A stretch of 64,000 nucleotides of DNA from Chthonomonadales bacterium (GTDB taxonomy: Bacteria; Armatimonadota; Chthonomonadetes; Chthonomonadales; CAJBBX01). The translations under genes and the position numbers were made by a program. This document shows positions 15,256 to 36,479 of this stretch, one piece after another; position 1 is the stretch's first letter, and every line of letters starts with the position of its first letter. The notes below the pieces were generated by a model. The model saw only the letters and a list, made by a program, of their open reading frames with translations, did not search any database and was not told the origin of the DNA. The stretch is taken from contig DAIDHP010000003.1 in assembly GCA_027459625.1 (NCBI GenBank), positions 186,001 through 250,000 on the forward strand, given 5' to 3'.

Positions 15256-15581
15256 AAGATAATTGGAATTCCAACATAGTCAGGAGAGGGCAACACAATG
15301 TTCTCTCCTTTTCTATTATCTCAACATTCAGTTAAACACATGATATTATTGAAACACAAACTATAATGGCATGGAATATGCAGTATATGAAAATGAACTT
15401 GGGTCGTTAATCGCACTGCAAAACCAAGGCGGAATAAAATTACATTTATCCGCTTATATGTAAAAGAAAGGAGCCAATTTGATCACATTGCATTTTGAGG
15501 ATGAAAACTCCCGATTTTGATTCAAATGCTTTATTATGCCAAAGGTTTATTTGTTTTCTGGTTATCCAATGGAGACATATT
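15256..15581. other. Intergenic region before the PEP-CTERM gene
   Basis: It begins with a terminator (listed separately) and holds a TATAAT at 15362-15367 without a clear -35 partner. That would give a leader of about 210 bases for the PEP-CTERM gene. No known riboswitch fold was recognised. Confidence 0.4.
15282..15314 (+). terminator. Terminator of the GH51 gene
   Basis: AGGAGAG (15282-15288) pairs with CTCTCCT (15303-15309); inner AACA/TGTT pairing extends the stem. TTTTC follows. Confidence 0.65.
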
Positions 15582-17036
15582 ATGAACGGGATCACTAAAG
15601 TAATGATCATTACCTCATTGGTTGCAGGTTGCATTGTACTGACTTTTGGGAACGCCTTTGCCCAGTTGTTAATCGGGCAGAATTTTGCAGGAAGCGATCA
15701 AGCGCAGAGCGGATACATCCCTCCTGACACGGAGGGTTCCATAGGACCTAACAGTTACGCGGAACTGGTTAACGGCACTTTCGCTGTTTACAGCCGAACG
15801 GGTACTTCGCAGATGAGCGAAAGCCTTGATCAATTTTGGACGAACGCGGGCGTGATACCATCGAACTACGCGTATGATCCGAGAATCATATATGATAAAA
15901 GTTCCGGAAGGTGGTTCGCCTCATCGCTTGACAACCTCGGACAGAGTAATAGTTTTCTGGTTGCCTACTCAAAAACTTCCGATCCAACGCAGGGATGGGT
16001 GGGATACGCAATTCCCAGTTTTGGCTCCGGCACGACGAACTGGGCGGATTTTGACACACTCGGGGTCAACAGCAACGGCGTTTACTTGGGTGCTAATTAT
16101 TTTCCAATCAGCGGCAACAATTATTATACGGGATTTGTCGCCATTCCAAAAACGCCGTTTATCGCAGGCTTGAATCCCAGCTTCACACAGTTCCTTCAAG
16201 TGGATCCAAATAACACAGGATATTCCGTGCAACCGTCATTGGACTTAAACGGAAGTTTCTCGGCGGAAAACTTGCTATCCGATTACAACACACCTGCGGG
16301 GCTGTTGCAAACCTCGGTGATTACCCTTGGTAATCCTGGTACTCTCACCTCATCGCCTTCGGGAGTGATCACAACGAGTTACGCCGTTCCACCAAATGCA
16401 CAGCAACCCGGTGGAGTGAATTCCCTGGATGCGGGGGACAACCGCTTTAGCTCCAGTGTTCAGGCGTTTGTAAACCCCATTACCGGCAAACAAGAGTTGT
16501 GGGGAGTGCAGACCGTATTGGATAATGGGGTTCCCGCATTGCACTGGGTGCGTATAGATGTCGCGACGAATTCTATTGTCCAGGATGGATTAATTAACGA
16601 TCCAAACAGTGTGATGAACTATTTTTATGGTTCAATCGCCGTTAGCAACGCTGGAGTGGTGATTGGATTCAACGGCTCAAGTTCCAATCAATTTATAAGC
16701 TCTTATGCGATTGGCGGTCTGTTTAATGCATTTGGCAATGTAAGCTTCGGAAATCCCATTTTACTAAAAGCCGGATCCGGCGTTTACTCGCAACTCGCAA
16801 AAAGTGTGAATCGATGGGGGGATTACAGCGCGACCACTGTCGATCCGCTCAATCCTAACTCCTTCTGGACCATCCAGGAGTTACCCTCGTCAAATAACTC
16901 TTGGTCCACTCAAATAACTCAATTATTAATTCCACAGTCCTCGCCGAACGTTCCCGAGCCGAATACGCTTGTTTTTCTATTGTCCGGCGTGACAGGGATG
17001 GGTGGATTGATCCTGACAAAGCTGAAAAGAGCGTAA
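15582..17036 (+). CDS. PEP-CTERM sorting domain protein
   Basis: A 484-residue exported protein. It has a signal peptide (MNGITKV...FGNAFAQ) and ends in VPEPNTLVFLLSGV, a hydrophobic helix and basic KLKRA tail, which together make a PEP-CTERM signal cut by an exosortase. The body (about 30-455) is rich in Asn, Ser, Gly and Tyr and includes PDTEGSIGPNSYAELVNG and YDPRIIYDKSSGRWFAS, the pattern of a beta-propeller-like family of secreted proteins. It is probably displayed on the surface or released into exopolysaccharide. Start ATG 15582 has GGAG eight bases upstream; a 29-codon extension is possible but breaks the signal peptide. No exosortase gene is in the window. Confidence 0.82.
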   Translation: MNGITKVMIITSLVAGCIVLTFGNAFAQLLIGQNFAGSDQAQSGYIPPDTEGSIGPNSYAELVNGTFAVYSRTGTSQMSESLDQFWTNAGVIPSNYAYDPRIIYDKSSGRWFASSLDNLGQSNSFLVAYSKTSDPTQGWVGYAIPSFGSGTTNWADFDTLGVNSNGVYLGANYFPISGNNYYTGFVAIPKTPFIAGLNPSFTQFLQVDPNNTGYSVQPSLDLNGSFSAENLLSDYNTPAGLLQTSVITLGNPGTLTSSPSGVITTSYAVPPNAQQPGGVNSLDAGDNRFSSSVQAFVNPITGKQELWGVQTVLDNGVPALHWVRIDVATNSIVQDGLINDPNSVMNYFYGSIAVSNAGVVIGFNGSSSNQFISSYAIGGLFNAFGNVSFGNPILLKAGSGVYSQLAKSVNRWGDYSATTVDPLNPNSFWTIQELPSSNNSWSTQITQLLIPQSSPNVPEPNTLVFLLSGVTGMGGLILTKLKRA

Positions 17037-17058: not shown

Positions 17059-17100
17059 AAAGGTCCGCATTTCGCGTGTGAAATGCGGACCTTTATCTTT
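17059..17100. terminator. Bidirectional terminator between convergent genes
   Basis: AAAGGTCCGCATTTC (17059-17073) and its perfect complement (17080-17094) form a 15-bp stem with a 6-base loop. T-rich bases follow on both strands, so it can end both the PEP-CTERM gene and the redox operon. Confidence 0.88.
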
Positions 17101-17126: not shown

Positions 17127-18122
17127 TTATATTAGTTTGAAGCCATCCTGCTTGCATATCTTCGGAGCGATCGCACCAAGGTTTTCCTGGAACATGTCGA
17201 AGTTTTGCAGACTGCTCACGCATACATCCACGATTGGCTTTCCGTCGCTGCCTTTATGCGTAAGGGCTTCCCGGATGCAGGAGCATCCTATTCTACCCGA
17301 CGCCTTCATCTTCGCTTGCTCGGCGGGGTTATTACGCATTGGGGTTCCTCCGTATGCCACGGTTTTCATCGCGGTGATTCCTATCCCCGCCTTATGGGCT
17401 TTCTCGAAAATCGCCCATGCGTCAGGAGGGGTGCCGTAATGGATGAAAGCTTGGATACTGCAAACGGTTCCATCATCGATAATGGCTTCAATAATCTCAG
17501 GATATGGAATCCAATCATGTTGACTCACCCCAAAATATTTGACTTTCCCCTCTTTTTTCAGCCTTTGAAAGGCTCGGTAAGTGCCCCTTTTGTTTTTGAG
17601 GGCGTCAACGGTTTTCCATCCGAAATGAGCGCGAAATATGTCGTAATATCCGAACCCGTTCTTTTGAAGCGATTGAACCACTTGCTGATACGCACCCTCC
17701 TCGTTATCGGGGTTGTTGGGTGTGGAATCTACGGTGATATCCGCGAAATAGGATTCACGCGGTATTTTCTTTAATTCGTTAGGCATGGAGTTCCAGTAGC
17801 CCGCCTTATGGATGAAATTCATTCCTGCGGCGAGGCAAGGCCCAAGCAGTTGAGGGTTTGAATCCTGGCATATAAGAATTGGAACCACCTCCATTTTGCC
17901 CATCTTTTTTCCTAATTGATGTTTTGGGAGCTTTCCGAATTGTGCAAGCATCGCCTCCGCTGCCTCGACTTGCTGGCTCGATGTGAGCATGTATCCACCA
18001 AATACGGATGAAAAAAGGCCACCCATAGCTGTTAAAGCGGATAAACGTTTCACGAATTCGCGACGACTCAGCGTGCGCGGCTCCCTCGATGATGAAGGTT
18101 CCGGCTGTTGGTTGTGTGGCAT
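17127..18122 (-). CDS. Tat-signal aldo/keto reductase-like protein with altered active site
   Basis: A 331-residue protein with a twin-arginine signal (SRREFVKRLSALTAMGG, Arg20-Arg21) and an aldo/keto reductase-like barrel. GMNFIHKAGYW corresponds to the family's NF(I/F)DTAxxY segment, but the catalytic Asp is His105 here while Tyr109 is kept. No Lys is seen at the expected ISTK position (the strand reads YFADITVD). The His of the third motif is kept (DIFRAHFGW, His166). KYFGVSQH and GGTPMRNNP mark later strands. A CSC pair occurs in GRIGCSCIREAL. It should fold outside the cytoplasm; normal NADPH-dependent reduction is doubtful. Start ATG 18122 has AAGGAG nine bases upstream. It is the last gene of a five-gene operon. 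Confidence 0.8.
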   Translation of the reverse strand: MPHNQQPEPSSSREPRTLSRREFVKRLSALTAMGGLFSSVFGGYMLTSSQQVEAAEAMLAQFGKLPKHQLGKKMGKMEVVPILICQDSNPQLLGPCLAAGMNFIHKAGYWNSMPNELKKIPRESYFADITVDSTPNNPDNEEGAYQQVVQSLQKNGFGYYDIFRAHFGWKTVDALKNKRGTYRAFQRLKKEGKVKYFGVSQHDWIPYPEIIEAIIDDGTVCSIQAFIHYGTPPDAWAIFEKAHKAGIGITAMKTVAYGGTPMRNNPAEQAKMKASGRIGCSCIREALTHKGSDGKPIVDVCVSSLQNFDMFQENLGAIAPKICKQDGFKLI

Positions 18123-18138
18123 CGAAATCTCCTTCCTA

Positions 18139-18501
18139 TTACAAATGATTTGAATATTCATGAGCGAGGGATATAGCATGATCGTATTCGCTTGAGTTCA
18201 TGATCCCCCGTAGACGAATGAAAAGTTTGACAGGAGCAAGGGTTTTTTCATCTCCCATTGGCTCACCCGTCCTGCCATTTACGTATTTGTGCCAAACGCC
18301 TTTTTCCGACTGGTTTACTTTCAGAATATGCGCCCAATGCGGTATTTCTCCCAGTAGAGCGTAATCCCTGGTATTTTCATAAGCATCCAACTTATCAAGA
18401 GCGATCCTTACGGTTTCCTCCAAACATATGCTCTCATTATGCCCTTCCTGGATGGGGAACAACGAATATCTCCACGAGATTGGCGATTGATCATAAATCA
18501 T
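18139..18501 (-). CDS. Hypothetical protein of the redox operon
   Basis: A 120-residue protein with no signal peptide, membrane helix or metal motif, and one Cys. I do not recognise a family. The sequence has TVRIALDKLDAYENTRDYALLGEIPHW and VKLFIRLRGIMNSSEYDHAI segments that look helical, and the whole resembles a small soluble partner protein. Its start overlaps the stop of the polyferredoxin gene (ATGA) and it ends 16 bases before the aldo/keto reductase-like gene, so it is made together with them and is very likely real. Confidence 0.75.
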   Translation of the reverse strand: MIYDQSPISWRYSLFPIQEGHNESICLEETVRIALDKLDAYENTRDYALLGEIPHWAHILKVNQSEKGVWHKYVNGRTGEPMGDEKTLAPVKLFIRLRGIMNSSEYDHAISLAHEYSNHL

Positions 18502-20438
18502 TGCCCTGATCCCGGGGTGGGCGGTGTGCCCGGCCCCATAATGTTTATCTCCTGTTGAAACTCTTTAACAATAGGAGCGTATTCGGCATCCTTGCCAGCC
18601 ACCTTGCGAGCGGTCCAATTGCGTCTGTAAAAACCATCAAGCGGAGATTCCGCGGGAGCTTTGTAATTACGCTCCTCTTGGAAGGTGTATACCTGAATGG
18701 CGTGATTAGGCAGCACCGGGCAATGGTATTCGCAAATACCGCAACCTGTACAAAGCTTTTCATCAACTGTGGGAACCCTCTTTGTACGCCCTTTATTACC
18801 CGGGGCCGTGATAGGTTGCGTGGGATCTTTTTGCAGACTGTCATCCCAGACATCTCTGAAGACAATCGCGGAATAGGGACACACTTCTGCGCAAACCACG
18901 CAATCCCTTCCTCCATTCCAAGCGATGCAAGTGGAATGGTTAACGTTAGCAAGTCCCATTTTAAGCTTGTAACGCTTATCCTGCCATGTGAAGGGGCGAA
19001 TTGCGTTCGTAGGGCATATATCGCCGCATGCGGTGCATTTTTCAGCGCATGGTCCGATGCTCGGCACCAGAATAGGAGTCCATATGCCTTCCAAACCTGT
19101 TTGCAGAAAAGCAGGCTGCAGGGCGTTGGTGGGGCAAACCTTCATGCATTCAGCGCAACGGGTGCATGCGGATAGAAACTCTCTTTCCGGCAAGGCTCCG
19201 GGCGGGCGCATCGCCTTGTCATCTCGCGGGTAACGTCTCATGATTCCCTGATAGTTGTCAGCCTGAGCGGTGGCGGTGGCGCCCCAGAACAGTCCCGCAG
19301 CTATGGCGCCGATGACATGACGTCTTCCAAGATTGATCTCCCCCTGTTTTTCCGGACGAGGGGCAGCTCCGTTCTTGGCAAGTTTCAAACGTTCCTTGAT
19401 TACTGCGGGAACCTTGGCTTGAATCTGAATAACGTCAGGAGGACATAGGGTTTCGCATCGAAAACACTGAATGCACTCGCTAATATTGTGTTCGACGGAC
19501 TCCTTCGCTTTTTTATCCAGGTTTTCGTAGCTTCCCATGCGGCTCTGGATTTCGCATTTCTTGCAGTGAATGCAACCCTCCATTTTGACATAGTGTCTGA
19601 GCCAAGAAATGCGGGATATAAGAGCCAGAAGCCCGCCATAAGGGCAGAGATTTCGGCACCAGAATCGTTCTTGATAGTATGAAAGAGCGATAACGCCAAT
19701 AAATATCAGCAAGACAGGCATGGCGTTGAAATACATCATTTTCGTCATATGCATCGTGTAAATATCGATACGGAAATGATGATAAATGGGCTTGCTCAGT
19801 CCCATATCGGTAAGGCCGTCCAGAAAACCGTTCCATATGTAAGCTATCGGAGCGTAGAAGCAGAGAGTGAATGTGCGTGTAATGAGCGATATCGGATCGC
19901 CGAAAGTTAAAATATCCACTCCATAGACGATAGCGCCTAAACCGATAAGCAGGTAAACGTATTTCCAGTTTCTGAAACGCCTGGTCTCGCTGCGTTTTTT
20001 GTTTTCGAAAAGTCGTCCCCTGCGATAAAGGAGCCTGTCACTAATGTCTATGAAGGTGCCCAGCGGGCATATCCAACCGCAGAATATTCTTCCCCCCCAT
20101 AATGTGAGCAGCAATATGAACAATCCCGGCCCTAACGCATAAACTGCGATATGATGCGAAGCGATGCCGTTTTTCAAGGTGTTCAGAAAATCCAACAGCA
20201 TGAAAAAGTTTTTGGGAATCCCAAAAAGGTATTGAGAGGAGACGGTACTCATGAAGAAGAAGATGACAAATATGCCGAATGTGACAATTTGTACGGTTCG
20301 GCGAATTTTGACGATTCGAAAAGCCGCAGGATTGCCGGGCGCTTCGACCATCTTTCTCTTCTCCTCCGGAGTGAACTGTTTTTTATTCTCAACCGGAATT
20401 TCACCGGGATGTATCAAATCTGTATCCGAAGTTGCCAT
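18498..20438 (-). CDS. NapH/NapG-type membrane polyferredoxin
   Basis: A 646-residue iron-sulfur protein that looks like a fusion of NapH and NapG/MauM. The N-terminal half has about five membrane helices and the two NapH-like motifs CGWICP (120-125) and CRNLCP (261-266). Then come an incomplete ferredoxin motif (CIHCKKC, 289-295, no closing CP) and a full one (322-333). A twin-arginine-like segment GRRHVIGAIAAGLFWG (371-386) follows. Four more ferredoxin motifs lie at 425-436, 464-476, 504-521 and 563-574. Such proteins pass electrons from quinol to partner enzymes across the membrane. The second half would be outside the cytoplasm if the internal signal is used. It overlaps the 120-residue gene downstream and follows the DUF362 gene after 41 bases. 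Confidence 0.88.
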   Translation of the reverse strand: MATSDTDLIHPGEIPVENKKQFTPEEKRKMVEAPGNPAAFRIVKIRRTVQIVTFGIFVIFFFMSTVSSQYLFGIPKNFFMLLDFLNTLKNGIASHHIAVYALGPGLFILLLTLWGGRIFCGWICPLGTFIDISDRLLYRRGRLFENKKRSETRRFRNWKYVYLLIGLGAIVYGVDILTFGDPISLITRTFTLCFYAPIAYIWNGFLDGLTDMGLSKPIYHHFRIDIYTMHMTKMMYFNAMPVLLIFIGVIALSYYQERFWCRNLCPYGGLLALISRISWLRHYVKMEGCIHCKKCEIQSRMGSYENLDKKAKESVEHNISECIQCFRCETLCPPDVIQIQAKVPAVIKERLKLAKNGAAPRPEKQGEINLGRRHVIGAIAAGLFWGATATAQADNYQGIMRRYPRDDKAMRPPGALPEREFLSACTRCAECMKVCPTNALQPAFLQTGLEGIWTPILVPSIGPCAEKCTACGDICPTNAIRPFTWQDKRYKLKMGLANVNHSTCIAWNGGRDCVVCAEVCPYSAIVFRDVWDDSLQKDPTQPITAPGNKGRTKRVPTVDEKLCTGCGICEYHCPVLPNHAIQVYTFQEERNYKAPAESPLDGFYRRNWTARKVAGKDAEYAPIVKEFQQEINIMGPGTPPTPGSGQ

Positions 20439-20479
20439 GGTGCATTTCCTATTTCAAGCGAGGAGGGAGTGAATAACCG

Positions 20480-21493
20480 TCAAACCGAAATTTCCTTTAT
20501 TTTCAGTTTGTTCACGTCAATCTCTCCGCGCCCAAGCTGGTTGGCGATAATAAGGTGAGGTACCTGATCGGGAGTGATTCCCAATACTGTTAGGAATCGG
20601 GTGCAGTATGAATCCACCGCAACGGGATCCAGACCCACGACCACGGTGTTCGGAGTGGTGACAATTCCCGGTCCCTTTGGCCCCCTTGTCTGAAGAGCGC
20701 GCGTGGCGTCGGCAACAATGAGGGTGGGGCGGACTGCCATGTTTAATTCCGCGATGCAGGGGTGCAGTCCATATCGATGATAATCCTTGCGATTCCAGAT
20801 ATCCCCCATCAGTTTTTTCATGCTGATTGTGATAACCGCCGCTTCGTGATTTTTCACCACTGGCATGCAGATCAGGGAATCGCAATCTATTATTTCGTTG
20901 GGTAGTTTTTGGTAGATGTGGTTTTCCTTGTGCACGCAGGTGTAAGGGGCGCCATTTGTAAGCTTCGTTGGCACGTAGGGTGGGATTTCCACATCCCTGT
21001 ACATGCTTGGATCGGTTGGGGAAAGAAGAGTTGCCATGGTTCCCTGCACCGCCTGCTCCGCCCCGCATATCTTGAATGCCAAGGTCCAATCGTCGAGACT
21101 GTAATCAATGCAGGTGATTTTAGATGCTCCCGCCTGTTGGCAAAGCTGCACCACCTTCCGTATCACATCCGGATGGGTGGTGGCTGCTTGGTCGGGGGTG
21201 CGCATCCAACCCATATTTGGGGTGAGAACCACGCGGTCCCCCTTATGAACGAATTTTTCGATACCGCCATACTCATTAATGGCTCTTTCCGTAATGGCGC
21301 CGTAATCGGTCGGATCGCCTTGAACCGCCACCAAATCCACTCCGGGAGGCTTCACCCCTTGCCGGATGTTGGTTTTCGCCACGGCGTTTTCATCCACGAA
21401 GGATAAACCATAAATTCCGCCGAGTATGACGGTGCCGCCGGCTATCTCAAGCAACTTACGTCGCGATATTTTTTGGGACTCATCCTTTTTCAT
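20480..21493 (-). CDS. DUF362 protein with Tat-type signal
   Basis: A 337-residue DUF362 protein. Family marks are GDRVVLTPNMGW, CMPVVKNHEAAVITISMKK (split over the central region), GDIWNRKDYHRYG and VVGLDPVAVDSYCTRFL. An N-terminal ISRRKLLEIAGGTVILGG resembles a twin-arginine signal. DUF362 proteins often come fused to or beside ferredoxins and are regarded as iron-sulfur partner proteins of unknown reaction. Start ATG 21493 is preferred to the TTG at 21508 because AAGGACAAGG precedes it. It lies between the DUF6599-like and polyferredoxin genes with short gaps. Confidence 0.85.
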   Translation of the reverse strand: MKKDESQKISRRKLLEIAGGTVILGGIYGLSFVDENAVAKTNIRQGVKPPGVDLVAVQGDPTDYGAITERAINEYGGIEKFVHKGDRVVLTPNMGWMRTPDQAATTHPDVIRKVVQLCQQAGASKITCIDYSLDDWTLAFKICGAEQAVQGTMATLLSPTDPSMYRDVEIPPYVPTKLTNGAPYTCVHKENHIYQKLPNEIIDCDSLICMPVVKNHEAAVITISMKKLMGDIWNRKDYHRYGLHPCIAELNMAVRPTLIVADATRALQTRGPKGPGIVTTPNTVVVGLDPVAVDSYCTRFLTVLGITPDQVPHLIIANQLGRGEIDVNKLKIKEISV

Positions 21494-21525
21494 TACCTTG
21501 TCCTTCAAATGGGCGACTAAAGAGG

Positions 21526-22452
21526 TTAACGCAGTCTACCCAACGCCACCTTGACGAGATGGATCGCCGGATCCGCCGATTTTGCGCGGATAACGCCAAC
21601 CAGATACTTGCCCTTTATTGCCACTACAACATTTTGCTGAAAAGTATCCACCACATGAAATCCGCCCTGTCCAACTCCTTTTAGAGGCGCCATTCCGGAA
21701 CCGGATTTCTCGTTCTTTTGATAAACAGCCAATAGTTTTCTTGCGGAAACGGGAGATGGCGTTTGGCAGATGAACAGCGTCGCGCCGAACCCCAACGAAG
21801 GATACATCGCCGTAACAGCGTTTTTCAAAAAAGAGTGACCTGCGACATTTGCTCGGACATACTGCTGGCTTCGAGCGCGGTATCCCGGAGGAAGAGCGTG
21901 AATGAGCGGGGGAATCTCTAATGAGCCGGATATTCTCGCCGCCGCTGCTCGTACAAGCTTGAATAATTCCACCTTGTTTTGAGGGGTGACGGTGCCCATG
22001 GCGACTATCGTGCCCCGCACAACATAATTTCCTTTCCAGAAGTTCAAACCTGTTTGACCGATTCTCACTCCTTCCGCTCCGATTTTGACGGGCGGACCGC
22101 TCATCCTGTCGCTGCCGAACATCCCGTAAGCGTTCAGGGGATTGGTCATGTCATACACGTCCATCGTGATGACCGGGCGAGACGCCTTTGCAGGACCGTA
22201 TTCCGCATGGGCGCAACTAACAAAATCGTAGGAAAGAACCGCATCCGCCTCGCCATCAATGAGGTTGTAGATGTTGCTGCGATTGTACACGCGTATGCCG
22301 TTGAAGAGTTTCCATCCCTTCACCACCGAGGCGGGCGGAAGTACGGTTTTTACGGTTTCCGCATTGGCGGATGGAACGACAACTATGACCGTAACTAACA
22401 ACAACATGTAAACCCAACTGGTACGAACTATCGACTTAGGTGAACCAAACAC
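21526..22452 (-). CDS. DUF6599-like exported protein, first gene of the redox operon
   Basis: A 308-residue exported protein with a signal peptide (about 1-31, ending PSANA). The body reads ADAVLSYDFVSCAHAEYG, MDVYDMTNPLNAYGMFGSDR and FWKGNYVVRGTI, which I associate with the DUF6599 family, where similar sequences stand near ferredoxins and DUF362 proteins; that name is a recollection and not verified. It starts at GTG 22452 with AAGGAG six bases upstream. It opens the operon that runs on to 17127. No cofactor motif is visible; it may be a binding or assembly protein on the periplasmic side. Confidence 0.7.
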   Translation of the reverse strand: MFGSPKSIVRTSWVYMLLLVTVIVVVPSANAETVKTVLPPASVVKGWKLFNGIRVYNRSNIYNLIDGEADAVLSYDFVSCAHAEYGPAKASRPVITMDVYDMTNPLNAYGMFGSDRMSGPPVKIGAEGVRIGQTGLNFWKGNYVVRGTIVAMGTVTPQNKVELFKLVRAAAARISGSLEIPPLIHALPPGYRARSQQYVRANVAGHSFLKNAVTAMYPSLGFGATLFICQTPSPVSARKLLAVYQKNEKSGSGMAPLKGVGQGGFHVVDTFQQNVVVAIKGKYLVGVIRAKSADPAIHLVKVALGRLR

Positions 22453-22973
22453 CTTAAACTCCTTTTCTCTCGTTTATGAGACTTACTCTTTTTTTCTCAG
22501 AGGTCGGTGTAATAAAAACCAAATCCATTTCTCAAACTCTCGGGCATTGTTTCAGCGCGCATGAAAGCAAATGCTCTTCAATCGAAATGTTGGCATATGG
22601 TGTCATTTGCCACATGGGAGCATATTAATACTCAGATTATAACTTCATATCAAGTAAGGAAAATTGACGGGAGCTTTTAATATCCCATTAAAATAGCTGC
22701 AATCATAAATCCCCATCTCCGTGAACACAGCCACCAAGATTTTTTTCATATTCAGAATACGAATAGTGTGATGCCACTGTTTCATCAAGTGATTTCAAGG
22801 AACGCGATTAGCTGAGGAGCGATCGACGTTTTCCTATAACGCAAGAAGGGAAAGAGCATGCCATGAAAGCCAAGGTGCGCCTTCCTTTTTTCGGAACGCG
22901 CACCTTGGCTTTAATTTTGAAACCGCTGAACCATATAACAAGACGGAATTGAGGAAAAGTCGCAAAATCCTTG
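22453..22973. other. Intergenic region upstream of the redox operon
   Basis: About 520 bases between two minus-strand genes, expected to carry the operon promoter. TATAAT on the reverse strand (22641-22636) has no good -35. TGGCA...TGCCA around 22603-22624 is a short inverted repeat that could be an operator. A strong hairpin near the left end of the MFS gene is listed separately. Confidence 0.4.
22866..22912 (-). terminator. Hairpin downstream of the MFS gene
   Basis: AAAGCCAAGGTGCG (22866-22879) pairs perfectly with CGCACCTTGGCTTT (22899-22912). The T tract on the reverse strand is short, so it may be a processing or weak termination site. Confidence 0.6.
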
Positions 22974-33388: not shown

Positions 33389-34762
33389 TTAGATGATCGT
33401 GGCGGGGTTGATGTGACTTCCCGGCCAATATTTGCGGGTTTTCGGATCAAAGTTCATCTCGGCGTTATTTCGATAGGAGAGCACCGCGAGCGAAAGGATG
33501 ATCTGTCCTCGAAGAGCCAAATTGATATTGCAGTTCGGTTCCGGAACTACGCCGCGAATGGCGTCGAGGAAGTTCCTTTCATGCACATCAATTCGATCCT
33601 CGCTCGGGGAGGATACTTCGGTGCCGTCTATCTGGTCAGCCCAAACTCTTTCAGGTTTCACCATGATGGTATCCCCGCCAAGTGTCAGGGTGGCTTTGTT
33701 CATACGCACCATATCCGTCCATCCCTCCTCATTGATGCAGGTTGTCATCAGCATGAGAGAAGGTCCGCCTTCGAAGTCCGTGATGACATCCACGAAATCC
33801 GGAACATGGCGGTCGACTTTGCCTTGCGCGTTGTATTTTTGGACGTACAACCCGCCACAGGATGCCACTCGCGTGGGGAATCCCTGGAAATCATCCTGCG
33901 GAATGTTAAGTGCTATCATCATGGGATAGAGTCTGTGCGGAAGCAAATCCCCAACAAGCCCCGTGCCGTAATCCCACCATTTTCTCCAGCGGAAGAAACG
34001 ATCCGGCACCCATTCCGCCGGTTTGGTGCCGCGTCGGAAAGTGTTCCAGTCGACGTAGTTATCTCCGGTGGCTTGCGGCCCCGTGCCAGGGTCGATGGGA
34101 TAGATGTTCCACTCACCCTCCTTTGAGTTGCGGCAATAGCTCGCCTGCCCCATCACACGTGTGCCGTACTGCCCGTTTTTGATGAGGTCCGCGCAGTTAT
34201 GATAGATGGGGGTCGAGGTTCCCTGAACTCCAACCTGCACCACTCGCTTGGTTTTTTTCGCAGTGTCATATAGTTTGTAGGCCTGTTCGACGGTTTTGCA
34301 CATCGGTTTTTCAATGTAGACGTGCTTGCCCGCCTCCATGGCGTCCAGGGCGACATCCGCGTGCCACTGATCCGAAGTGGTGACCCAAACCGCATCGATA
34401 TCTTTATTTTCCAACAGTTTCCGATGGTCGGCGAATATTCCACTATCATTGATGTTCAAAATCGCCGCCGCCTCTTTTCTGCGGCGGACGTACAGATCGC
34501 ATACCGCCACTTGATCGGTATTGTTCTTCAAACCATCCGTGGCGTTGTCATGTAACAGTCGAACATGGGTGGTTCCCTGCATTCCCACGCCCACATGTCC
34601 GATGATGATTTTGTCATTGGCTCCCAGCACTTTTGCCGGAGCAAGGGAGTAGACGGAACTTTTCGCAATCTGGGAAGCCGCCACGGAAACCGTGGCGGTT
34701 AGCGCTGCGTTTCGGATGAATTCACGTCGTGTCGATCCCTTGTTATCCTGATCCTGGCTCAT
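33389..34762 (-). CDS. Tat-signal Gfo/Idh/MocA family oxidoreductase 1
   Basis: A 457-residue protein with a twin-arginine signal (STRREFIRNAALTATVSVAA) and a Gfo/Idh/MocA fold. The dinucleotide domain starts at KIIIGHVGVGMQGTTHVRLL and contains VWVTTSDQWHADVALDAMEAGKHVYIEKPMC; EKPMCKT holds the conserved Lys. The C-terminal domain follows from VVQVGVQGTST. These exported relatives are common in Planctomycetota, Verrucomicrobiota and Armatimonadota, and the reaction is usually unknown though sugar or inositol oxidation and glycoside cleavage are known in the family. It is co-transcribed after the second family member (44-base gap). Confidence 0.88.
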   Translation of the reverse strand: MSQDQDNKGSTRREFIRNAALTATVSVAASQIAKSSVYSLAPAKVLGANDKIIIGHVGVGMQGTTHVRLLHDNATDGLKNNTDQVAVCDLYVRRRKEAAAILNINDSGIFADHRKLLENKDIDAVWVTTSDQWHADVALDAMEAGKHVYIEKPMCKTVEQAYKLYDTAKKTKRVVQVGVQGTSTPIYHNCADLIKNGQYGTRVMGQASYCRNSKEGEWNIYPIDPGTGPQATGDNYVDWNTFRRGTKPAEWVPDRFFRWRKWWDYGTGLVGDLLPHRLYPMMIALNIPQDDFQGFPTRVASCGGLYVQKYNAQGKVDRHVPDFVDVITDFEGGPSLMLMTTCINEEGWTDMVRMNKATLTLGGDTIMVKPERVWADQIDGTEVSSPSEDRIDVHERNFLDAIRGVVPEPNCNINLALRGQIILSLAVLSYRNNAEMNFDPKTRKYWPGSHINPATII

Positions 34763-34806
34763 TCAAAGCTCCTTTTGATTGGTTGTGTGGATTCACATAT
34801 TCTCTT

Positions 34807-36129
34807 TTAAAGCGTAAACATGCTCGGGTCAAAGGTTATTTTTTGACCTGTGAGTATGGATTCATTGGTTTTCAACGCCACGACATTGGCGGTGTATCCA
34901 TCCTGTGCAGTGCATTTCAGAGGATTCGCTTTCGGATCGCGTATCGTGTTCAGGAAAGCTCCCACGGATTGGTATAAAGCCGTCTTGCTTACGTCGTTGC
35001 CAACGCTTGCGGGTTGCTTGCCCAGAAGAAGCTGTTTGGTTGCATCGGCGACCAGCATAATTCCGGTGCCTGTCTTTGTGTCACCAATTCCCATTGTCTC
35101 TCTCTTGGCGTAAACCTCCCACCCAATAAGAGGCGCGTCGCTTTCCTTGAACATCCATGCGTTTTGATCTCGAATGACGACCGATGCCTGATTTCCGAAA
35201 ACAGACTCGAACGCACCGTCGAAAGAGGTCACCAATGATGCATCGTAATAACAGTTCACGTTGTTCGGATACTGAATGATCACTTCAATCGTATCCGGAA
35301 CCTGCATCCCATCCTTGCCCCATTCGATAATCCCTCCAAAGCCTTGTACGGAGATCGGGGTGTGGTTCATCACCCAGGAGAATACGTCGAGTTGGTGAAT
35401 TCCTATTTCGCCTGCGAGGCCGGAGGAGGTGTCCTTGTACATGCGCCAATTGAGAGCTTTCATCCTGGCGTCGCTCGGATCCACTCGTTGCCAGGAACCG
35501 CGTCGATGCCATTGGGAACGCCCCGAGAAGATGATGCCAAAGTCCATTGCATGTACGAATGTCATTACATGCAAATGCATGCCGTTTGATCGATATTGCA
35601 TACCCGGTTGGAAAACGGTTTTCGCCGCCGCCCCGGCCTGCGCGATCACTTTCGCCTCGTCCAAGTCGGAACTCATAGGTGCTTCGCAGTAGACATGCTT
35701 CCCCGCAGCGAGGGCGTCCAGAGTGATCTGTTTGTGCTGGTAGGAGGGAGTGGCAACGAAAACCGCCTGAACGTTGTTATCGTCAAGGATTTTATGATAA
35801 TCGGTTTGCACAGTGACATTCGGGATGATATTGGTTGATTTCTTGATGAAATAGGGATCGGTGTAGGTATCGCACATCCCAACCACAGGGGCGCTGTTCT
35901 GAGGCATTTTAGCCAATGAGGACAGTATCTCCCTCCCGCGCGGTCCCAAACCGATAACCGCGCATTTCACCGGAGCGCCGGTGTAGGGATCAGCAGTCGC
36001 CTTCACGGCTGTATCCGATCCGGTGTCGGCATTGGCAGTCAAAGCTTGCGCTCCAAGAGCCAATCCAACAGATGAGGCCGCCATCCCCTTTAGAAAATCA
36101 CGGCGGTTGATGTTTTCATTTGCAGACAT
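34807..36129 (-). CDS. Tat-signal Gfo/Idh/MocA family oxidoreductase 2
   Basis: A 440-residue protein with a twin-arginine signal (INRRDFLKGMAASSVGLALGA). The nucleotide domain reads VKCAVIGLGPRGREIL, then VFVATPSYQHKQITLDALAAGKHVYCEAPM; the conserved EKP is EAP here, so the usual catalytic Lys of that motif is replaced by Ala. SGLAGEIGIHQLDVFSWV marks the second domain. Start ATG 36129 has GGAAGG before it. It is the first gene of a two-gene operon. The pair is probably a heteromeric or sequential sugar-modifying set in the periplasm. Confidence 0.87.
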   Translation of the reverse strand: MSANENINRRDFLKGMAASSVGLALGAQALTANADTGSDTAVKATADPYTGAPVKCAVIGLGPRGREILSSLAKMPQNSAPVVGMCDTYTDPYFIKKSTNIIPNVTVQTDYHKILDDNNVQAVFVATPSYQHKQITLDALAAGKHVYCEAPMSSDLDEAKVIAQAGAAAKTVFQPGMQYRSNGMHLHVMTFVHAMDFGIIFSGRSQWHRRGSWQRVDPSDARMKALNWRMYKDTSSGLAGEIGIHQLDVFSWVMNHTPISVQGFGGIIEWGKDGMQVPDTIEVIIQYPNNVNCYYDASLVTSFDGAFESVFGNQASVVIRDQNAWMFKESDAPLIGWEVYAKRETMGIGDTKTGTGIMLVADATKQLLLGKQPASVGNDVSKTALYQSVGAFLNTIRDPKANPLKCTAQDGYTANVVALKTNESILTGQKITFDPSMFTL

Positions 36130-36479
36130 AAGTACCTTCCATTTTGGAGATTTTTGCCACGGGGGCGACATGAAACGTAGCGGTGTTACAATTGACTCGT
36201 AAAAATACCTCTACTCAATACTCCATCCAAGGTGCTTTTGTCAAGGGCTTGGAGCAGTGAACTTGAAAGGTTGAGATATTCCATGCACTTGTTAGATACC
36301 GCGTGAATAGACCAAGTCTTAAATCAGGGAATACGAATTCCCCTTTCATTAGAGAACGGATTTTCATATTTGTTACACCTTTTTTCAATTTTATGATAAG
36401 GGGGGATTGATTCATCTGCTCGACCGACTTCAGCGAAATCGCCGACCAAGCGGGACCAGGGATATTGAAAGTAGGAACA
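36130..36479. other. Intergenic region upstream of the Gfo/Idh/MocA pair
   Basis: It carries a candidate promoter for the pair. A reverse 50-codon frame (36367-36215, start ATG with AAGGTG nine bases upstream) exists but has no recognisable motif and overlaps the promoter, so it is not called as a gene. Confidence 0.45.
36215..36244 (-). promoter_or_regulatory. Candidate promoter of the Gfo/Idh/MocA pair
   Basis: Reverse strand TTGACA (36244-36239) and TATTGA (36220-36215) are 18 bases apart; the leader to ATG 36129 would be about 80 bases. Confidence 0.45.

Follow-up and report, generated by a model that had tools for sequence, protein, structure and literature searches.

The five-gene locus

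The 64,000-nucleotide stretch of DNA analysed here (the window; positions 186,001 to 250,000 of contig DAIDHP010000003.1, assembly GCA_027459625.1) belongs to a Chthonomonadales bacterium with a genome size of 4.55 Mb. Its minus strand carries five closely spaced genes encoding, in the order of transcription, an exported DUF6599 protein, a DUF362 protein with a signal for twin-arginine translocation (Tat), a NapH-NapG fusion polyferredoxin (NapHG), a protein of 120 amino acids (aa) designated U120, and a Tat-signal protein resembling aldo/keto reductases (AKRs), here called AKR-like (Table 1). This gene set is real, conserved and built on a published type of electron relay. The identities and the place that an initial annotation of the window had given for the five genes were all borne out, with Pfam or other model matches for every gene except that of U120.

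The genes are tightly packed, with gaps of 32 nucleotides (nt) between DUF6599 and DUF362, 41 nt between DUF362 and NapHG and 16 nt between U120 and the AKR-like gene, while NapHG and U120 overlap by the ATGA at 18498-18501 that had been described in the initial annotation. The shared terminator it had postulated was likewise recovered as a strong hairpin beyond the AKR-like gene, and a second hairpin lies on the upstream side. The tight packing and the flanking terminators suggest that the five genes are co-transcribed. A promoter scan found sites no commoner than in shuffled sequence, and an Rfam search of the window returned one tRNA only, with no riboswitch near the cluster. Judged from the sequence, the DUF362 start is better placed at ATG 21493 than at TTG 21508, and the AKR-like start at ATG 18122, after AGGAAGGAG, than at 18179, in agreement with the relative from the same genus.

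Table 1. Genes of the cluster and flanking terminator hairpins, in window positions.
Feature	Position	Strand	Description
DUF6599 exported protein	21526..22452	-	308 aa; GTG start, GGAG upstream; Pfam PF20244, E=1.3e-34
DUF362 protein	20480..21493	-	337 aa from ATG 21493; Tat-type signal SRRKLLEIAGG; Pfam PF04015, E=3.8e-39
NapHG, NapH-NapG fusion polyferredoxin	18498..20438	-	646 aa; Fer4, NapG and NapH model matches
U120	18139..18501	-	120 aa; ATGA overlap with NapHG
AKR-like protein	17127..18122	-	331 aa; Tat signal LSRREFVKRL; Aldo_ket_red, E=2.1e-8, and Tat-signal model
Hairpin terminator, 16 pairs	17059..17094		z=-5.3; between the AKR-like gene and a convergent plus-strand gene
Hairpin terminator after upstream MFS gene	about 22866..22912	-	z=-4.8; sets the cluster apart from this gene

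Conservation of the gene set

Conservation was examined in 31 genomes of the order and in 291 genomes of the GTDB phylum Armatimonadota. All five genes were present in the same 15 of the 31 order genomes (one AKR-like gene being truncated) and the remaining 16 lacked the entire set; NapHG and DUF6599, each taken singly, occurred in these 15 and in none of the 16 others. In the phylum, the AKR-like family profile matched 17 genomes at E<=1e-40, and an eighteenth, G030, has an AKR-like gene interrupted by a contig end. U120 was confined to the same 18 genomes at E<1e-15, and close DUF362 homologues (E<1e-90) to these 18 and G065, all 18 AKR-like genomes, including the truncated case, thus having close DUF362 and U120 as well. 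Presence coincides by genera, 7 of the 11 genera of one family and 3 of the 8 genera of a second having the genes; the genus-level coincidence amounts to about 5e-5 per gene pair (the product of the two family values) if genera are independent, which they are not quite. Conservation of the set is far beyond chance, and the proposal made in the initial annotation was in this respect borne out.

The gene order is not unique to this genome. The triad DUF6599-DUF362-NapHG is collinear in all 18 cluster-bearing genomes; in G002 a contig break interrupts it, and in G019 the contig ends within NapHG. The five genes form one cluster in 13 genomes and two loci in five. Among the former, extra genes are inserted in G013, G017 and G030, G025 has an additional AKR-like copy, and U120 is placed after the AKR-like gene in G034. 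Among the latter, the complete 3.44 Mb genome G015 has its AKR-like gene approximately 1.7 Mb away with U120 remaining beside NapHG, and U120 is located with the AKR-like gene at the separate locus in G016, G019, G021 and G028. The five-gene order is therefore conserved yet not rigid. Among the genomes compared, the nearest relative is the metagenome-assembled genome JAJZOL01, whose NapHG and DUF362 are 98% identical to those of the window. In the NCBI taxonomy the cluster is distributed over two phyla and in that of GTDB it is confined to one, because NCBI gives Abditibacteriaceae a phylum of its own and GTDB keeps this family in Armatimonadota.

A DUF362-NapHG core with a lineage-specific add-on

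When distant homologues were included, the DUF362 profile matched 92 genomes of the phylum. In several of the Armatimonadota families examined, these distant homologues adjoin a NapHG homologue (33-38% identity), with no DUF6599, U120 or AKR-like gene there, and the AKR-like gene is missing from most genomes that have the pair. Beyond Armatimonadota, where sampling consisted of one pattern-based genome scan and plasmid records, the pair was found in Parabacteroides distasonis (L083). As in the window, a twin-arginine DUF362 protein is encoded immediately upstream of a NapH-NapG fusion, and both are full-length counterparts, with homology by profile alignment over most of the length of both proteins (hhalign 100% for NapHG against the Parabacteroides fusion); unlike in the window, DUF6599, U120 and AKR genes are not beside the pair. 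Because the pair recurs in other families and in Parabacteroides without the rest, we conclude that DUF362 and NapHG are a widespread core and that AKR-like, U120 and DUF6599 are a lineage-specific add-on. Four genomes have a ParB-like gene separating DUF362 from NapHG (L127:10748-11509, L128:3168-3938, L129:4465-5199 and L053:7204-7983), with PF02195 in the one that was scanned.

The initial annotation had placed the AKR-like protein at the end of the electron chain. This was not supported, since it is DUF362 that invariably accompanies NapHG, and in five of the 18 genomes the AKR-like gene lies elsewhere. The same separation, with U120 accompanying the AKR-like gene in four of these genomes and NapHG in the fifth, and the pair occurring without the add-on in several families, would fit two independent systems at one locus, namely the widespread pair and an unrelated AKR/U120 module, co-inherited and not acting in one reaction. 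We regard this as quite improbable; AKR-like and U120 never occur without close DUF362, DUF6599 and NapHG, even when unlinked.

The NapHG polyferredoxin

Both the NapG (E=2e-25) and NapH (E~1e-24) models match on the one NapHG polypeptide, together with Pfam Fer4. Hydrophobic segments around residues 48-66, 97-115, 161-179 and 234-252 correspond to four transmembrane helices; the NapH half has the CxxxCP motifs CGWICP and CRNLCP, and a predicted cytoplasmic 4Fe-4S domain has CxxCxxC and CxxCxxCxxxC, seven cysteines in all. A fifth segment (375-393) is weakly hydrophobic and Tat-type, with GRR before it, and the NapG half carries 16 cysteines at 425-573, conserved in 11 homologues, for four [4Fe-4S] clusters. 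The NapH/NapG architecture given in the initial annotation was supported by the four helices, the Tat-type fifth segment and the conserved cysteines. Ser299, at the place where the eighth cysteine (the fourth of one [4Fe-4S] site) would be expected, is invariant in 11 aligned homologues. A Gly/Cys-rich N-terminal extension (GCGSGCGC...), which the window NapHG does not have, was seen in the NapHG proteins of L043:7907-10072, L045:12663-14906, L046:6709-8859 and L048:4691-6835.

NapH-NapG fusions are known as dual Sec/Tat polyferredoxins (PFD), which are related to the NapGH quinol dehydrogenase and follow the rule of a GRR before a weakly hydrophobic fifth segment (Tooke et al., eLife 2017, PMC5449189). 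By homology, NapHG probably has the topology of this family, for which the reporter work used a homologue other than the window NapHG. It is like NapGH and the PFD fusions in its four transmembrane helices, cytoplasmic Fe-S motifs, twin-arginine fifth segment and four periplasmic [4Fe-4S] clusters on a single chain. It is unlike NapGH systems in its company, as NapA, NapB and NapC are not beside it and its partners here are DUF362, DUF6599, U120 and the AKR-like protein.

The AKR-like protein, U120 and DUF6599

The AlphaFold2 model of the AKR-like protein (predicted local distance difference test score, pLDDT, 88) has the (beta/alpha)8 AKR fold, and its 50 best PDB matches by Foldseek are AKR-type oxidoreductases, the closest solved relatives including L-galactose dehydrogenases. 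PHROGs gave a single, uninformative match for it. When the family was aligned together with canonical and Tat-type AKRs, the catalytic Asp was found replaced by His in all 16 AKR-like sequences, Lys by Thr in 15 and by Cys in one, and Tyr by Trp in 13 and by Phe in one, being kept in two, while the catalytic His is kept in all 16; the window protein has His, Trp and Thr for Asp, Tyr and Lys and keeps the His. All four residues are retained in the canonical AKRs of the same lineage and in Bacteroidales Tat-AKRs of the same alignment. In addition, Gln replaces the SN-motif Asn and Met occupies the position of the stacking Tyr in 16/16; H105, K106, Y109, H166, Q201 and H202 are among the residues invariant in the family.

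The reductase-like role suggested in the initial annotation was not supported, given these replacements, and the protein is likely a pseudoenzyme. The candidate role of an ordinary exported NADPH reductase was rejected as unlikely because the tetrad is lost. The protein may nevertheless bind NAD(P), since a Glu-Asn pair is conserved; in AKRs, the helix bearing this pair contacts the cofactor. The Bacteroidales tandems L084 and L085 likewise encode a NapH-NapG fusion and then a twin-arginine AKR, but in those AKRs the tetrad is intact and a ferredoxin domain follows at the C-terminus, neither of which is true of the window protein. L188:6819-7907 encodes a further Tat-type AKR, with Cys motifs at its C-terminus, which likewise has His at the catalytic Asp and in addition Gln at the catalytic His. 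At L039, L040, L041, L042, L046 and L047 the AKR-like gene has two companions, one for a canonical AKR and one for a conserved 235-aa protein that is polysaccharide deacetylase-like by eye, with no Pfam match.

U120 found no match in Pfam, NCBIfam, PHROG or PDB. It has neither signal peptide nor transmembrane segment, and its family alignment shows an invariant HxxH as well as a QxxxGxW pattern; a pattern of the U120 type, QxxDGxWPxxxNxRTGE, is shared with larger proteins weakly similar to glycosidase families and is too short to conclude from. DUF6599 has a single N-terminal hydrophobic segment by hydropathy (residues 8-26).

Encoded next to Tat substrates, U120 might be a chaperone, and some of these data could be read in terms of maturation or repair, with NapHG supplying electrons in the manner of CcoG or NosR and with DUF362, AKR-like and U120 assembling or reactivating an exported metalloenzyme. 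Consistent with this, the NapH half weakly resembles CcoG and NosR in model comparisons, U120 is small, apparently cytoplasmic and placed where a Tat chaperone would be, and the AKR-like protein is likely catalytically inactive. We nonetheless judge such a role improbable, as a client enzyme was not consistently adjacent to the cluster in the loci examined and U120 matched none of the Pfam or NCBIfam models, those of Tat chaperones included.

DUF362 and the LarA superfamily

LarA-type enzymes use hydride transfer in their action on alpha-hydroxy acids, with His174 in the Lactiplantibacillus enzyme (PMC12611868), and Pfam clan CL0471 unites DUF362 with LarA/DUF2088 (PMC11770544). The window protein scores 135 bits against PF04015 (curated cut-off, 24), and its K219, H221, K231 and H244, counted from TTG 21508, are invariant across distant NapHG-linked homologues. 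The two top PDB matches of its structural model (pLDDT 72, with the region of the conserved motif poorly modelled) are LarA-type, namely 9q3j (E=9e-6) and 4nar (E=3e-4), with TM-scores of only 0.33-0.38. No alignment was obtained by hhalign against one or against 19 LarA sequences, and PDB sequence searches with DUF362, U120 and DUF6599 yielded nothing useful. The spacing in DUF362 is H-x9-K-x12-H (H221, K231, H244) and that in the LarA of the same genome is H-x9-K-x15-H, whose residues would correspond to His174, Lys184 and His200 in the enzyme from Lactiplantibacillus. The two sets of residues might conceivably be equivalent, but profile-profile comparison found nothing. DUF362 is like the LarA superfamily of nickel-pincer nucleotide enzymes in its clan, its best fold matches and an H-x9-K spacing with a later His, and unlike it in having no profile-level match, in being exported and linked to Fe-S proteins, and in occurring with NapHG also in genomes without LarC.

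LarC was found in 18/18 cluster genomes and LarE over the cut-off in 16/17, and 11/18 have no detectable LarA, which would leave the nickel-pincer cofactor without a known user. The link is weak because LarC is widespread in the phylum (163/291 genomes) and nine genomes with homologous DUF362 have no LarC match. A specific link of LarC to the cluster was rejected on this ground and because most relatives without the cluster also have LarC. Among 67 phylum genomes with LarC and no detectable LarA, 48 have DUF362, as against 7 of 99 with neither LarC nor LarA, a difference confounded by clade, and 19 of the 291 genomes have LarC with neither LarA nor DUF362. The association in LarA-less genomes is a possible hint about the DUF362 cofactor. 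In one family, LarC (Ni_insertion) takes the form of two separate genes, distant from each other or on different contigs (3233253-3233969 and 656941-657399 of G015:C1; also G013, G016, G017, G021, G022, G025 and G028), and it is one gene in other families.

Neighbouring genes

The product of the convergent plus-strand gene (window 15495-17036) has 513 aa and, at its C-terminus, a weak PEP-CTERM match that stays below the cut-off. Tandem Gfo/Idh/MocA oxidoreductases are encoded on the minus strand at 33389-36171, and genes for glycoside hydrolases, of the GH20-, GH116- and GxGYxYP-type, are abundant in the window.

Discussion

The interpretation we tentatively favour is a NapGH-type, quinone-linked relay serving an exported DUF362 protein of putative LarA-like fold, with AKR-like, U120 and DUF6599 as an add-on; we infer its topology (by homology), quinone link, DUF362 partnership, outward direction and add-on roles. 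The NapH half would accept electrons from quinol, as NapGH does, and these would pass via cytoplasmic [4Fe-4S] clusters across the membrane to the NapG half, whose four periplasmic [4Fe-4S] clusters would deliver them to the Tat-exported DUF362 protein as the core redox partner. The AKR-like protein and DUF6599 would most likely bind or prepare the substrate in the periplasm, and U120 may assist in the cytoplasm. The Tat signals of DUF362 and AKR-like and the N-terminal hydrophobic segment of DUF6599 support such an arrangement, as do the NapH and NapG matches on one chain, the GRR before a weakly hydrophobic fifth segment, the recurrence of DUF362 beside NapHG in distant families and in Parabacteroides, and the joint presence or absence of the five genes in the order. 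Three points weigh against it: no recognisable redox-cofactor motif was seen in DUF362, some NapH/NapG relatives (MauN/MauM, CcoG) have assembly or undefined roles, and an AKR-like protein encoded apart from the core in five genomes may act separately.

Electrons might also run inward, with DUF362 and/or the AKR-like protein oxidising a periplasmic sugar or hydroxy acid as a periplasmic dehydrogenase and NapHG feeding the quinone pool. We consider this direction rather unlikely, since those polyferredoxins of the NapHG type whose function has been tested are known to carry electrons outward, away from quinol, the AKR-like protein has no tetrad and the LarA resemblance is structural only. In its favour are L-galactose dehydrogenases among the closest solved AKR-like relatives, the abundance of glycoside hydrolases in the window, the canonical AKR and deacetylase-like genes at some homologous AKR loci, and the hydride transfer on alpha-hydroxy acids performed by the LarA-type enzymes that DUF362 best matches in fold (PMC12611868).

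The initial annotation held that no such pathway had been described. This stands for the cluster itself, as no paper on it or function for it was found in the open-access literature, and none for DUF362 with a polyferredoxin or for DUF6599; it does not stand for the components, since NapH-NapG fusions with dual Sec/Tat insertion have been published (PMC5449189) and Bacteroidota records annotate both DUF362+4Fe-4S and 4Fe-4S+aldo/keto-reductase pairs.

A more specific version of the relay, in which NapHG wires the exported DUF362 protein to the quinone pool as an oxidoreductase, its LarA-type nickel-pincer or similar hydride-carrying cofactor being loaded in the cytoplasm before Tat export, seems to us very improbable; if true, it would mean net redox chemistry by a fold so far known for racemases and epimerases. 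The DUF362 domain is common and has had no function assigned to it; its association with a quinone-type relay, in several families of Armatimonadota as well as in Parabacteroides, provides a testable role. The AKR-like family clearly exemplifies an AKR barrel, exported by Tat, in which another invariant residue set has taken the place of the tetrad, and the strict co-occurrence of AKR-like, U120 and DUF6599 with DUF362 could help to place three uncharacterised families.

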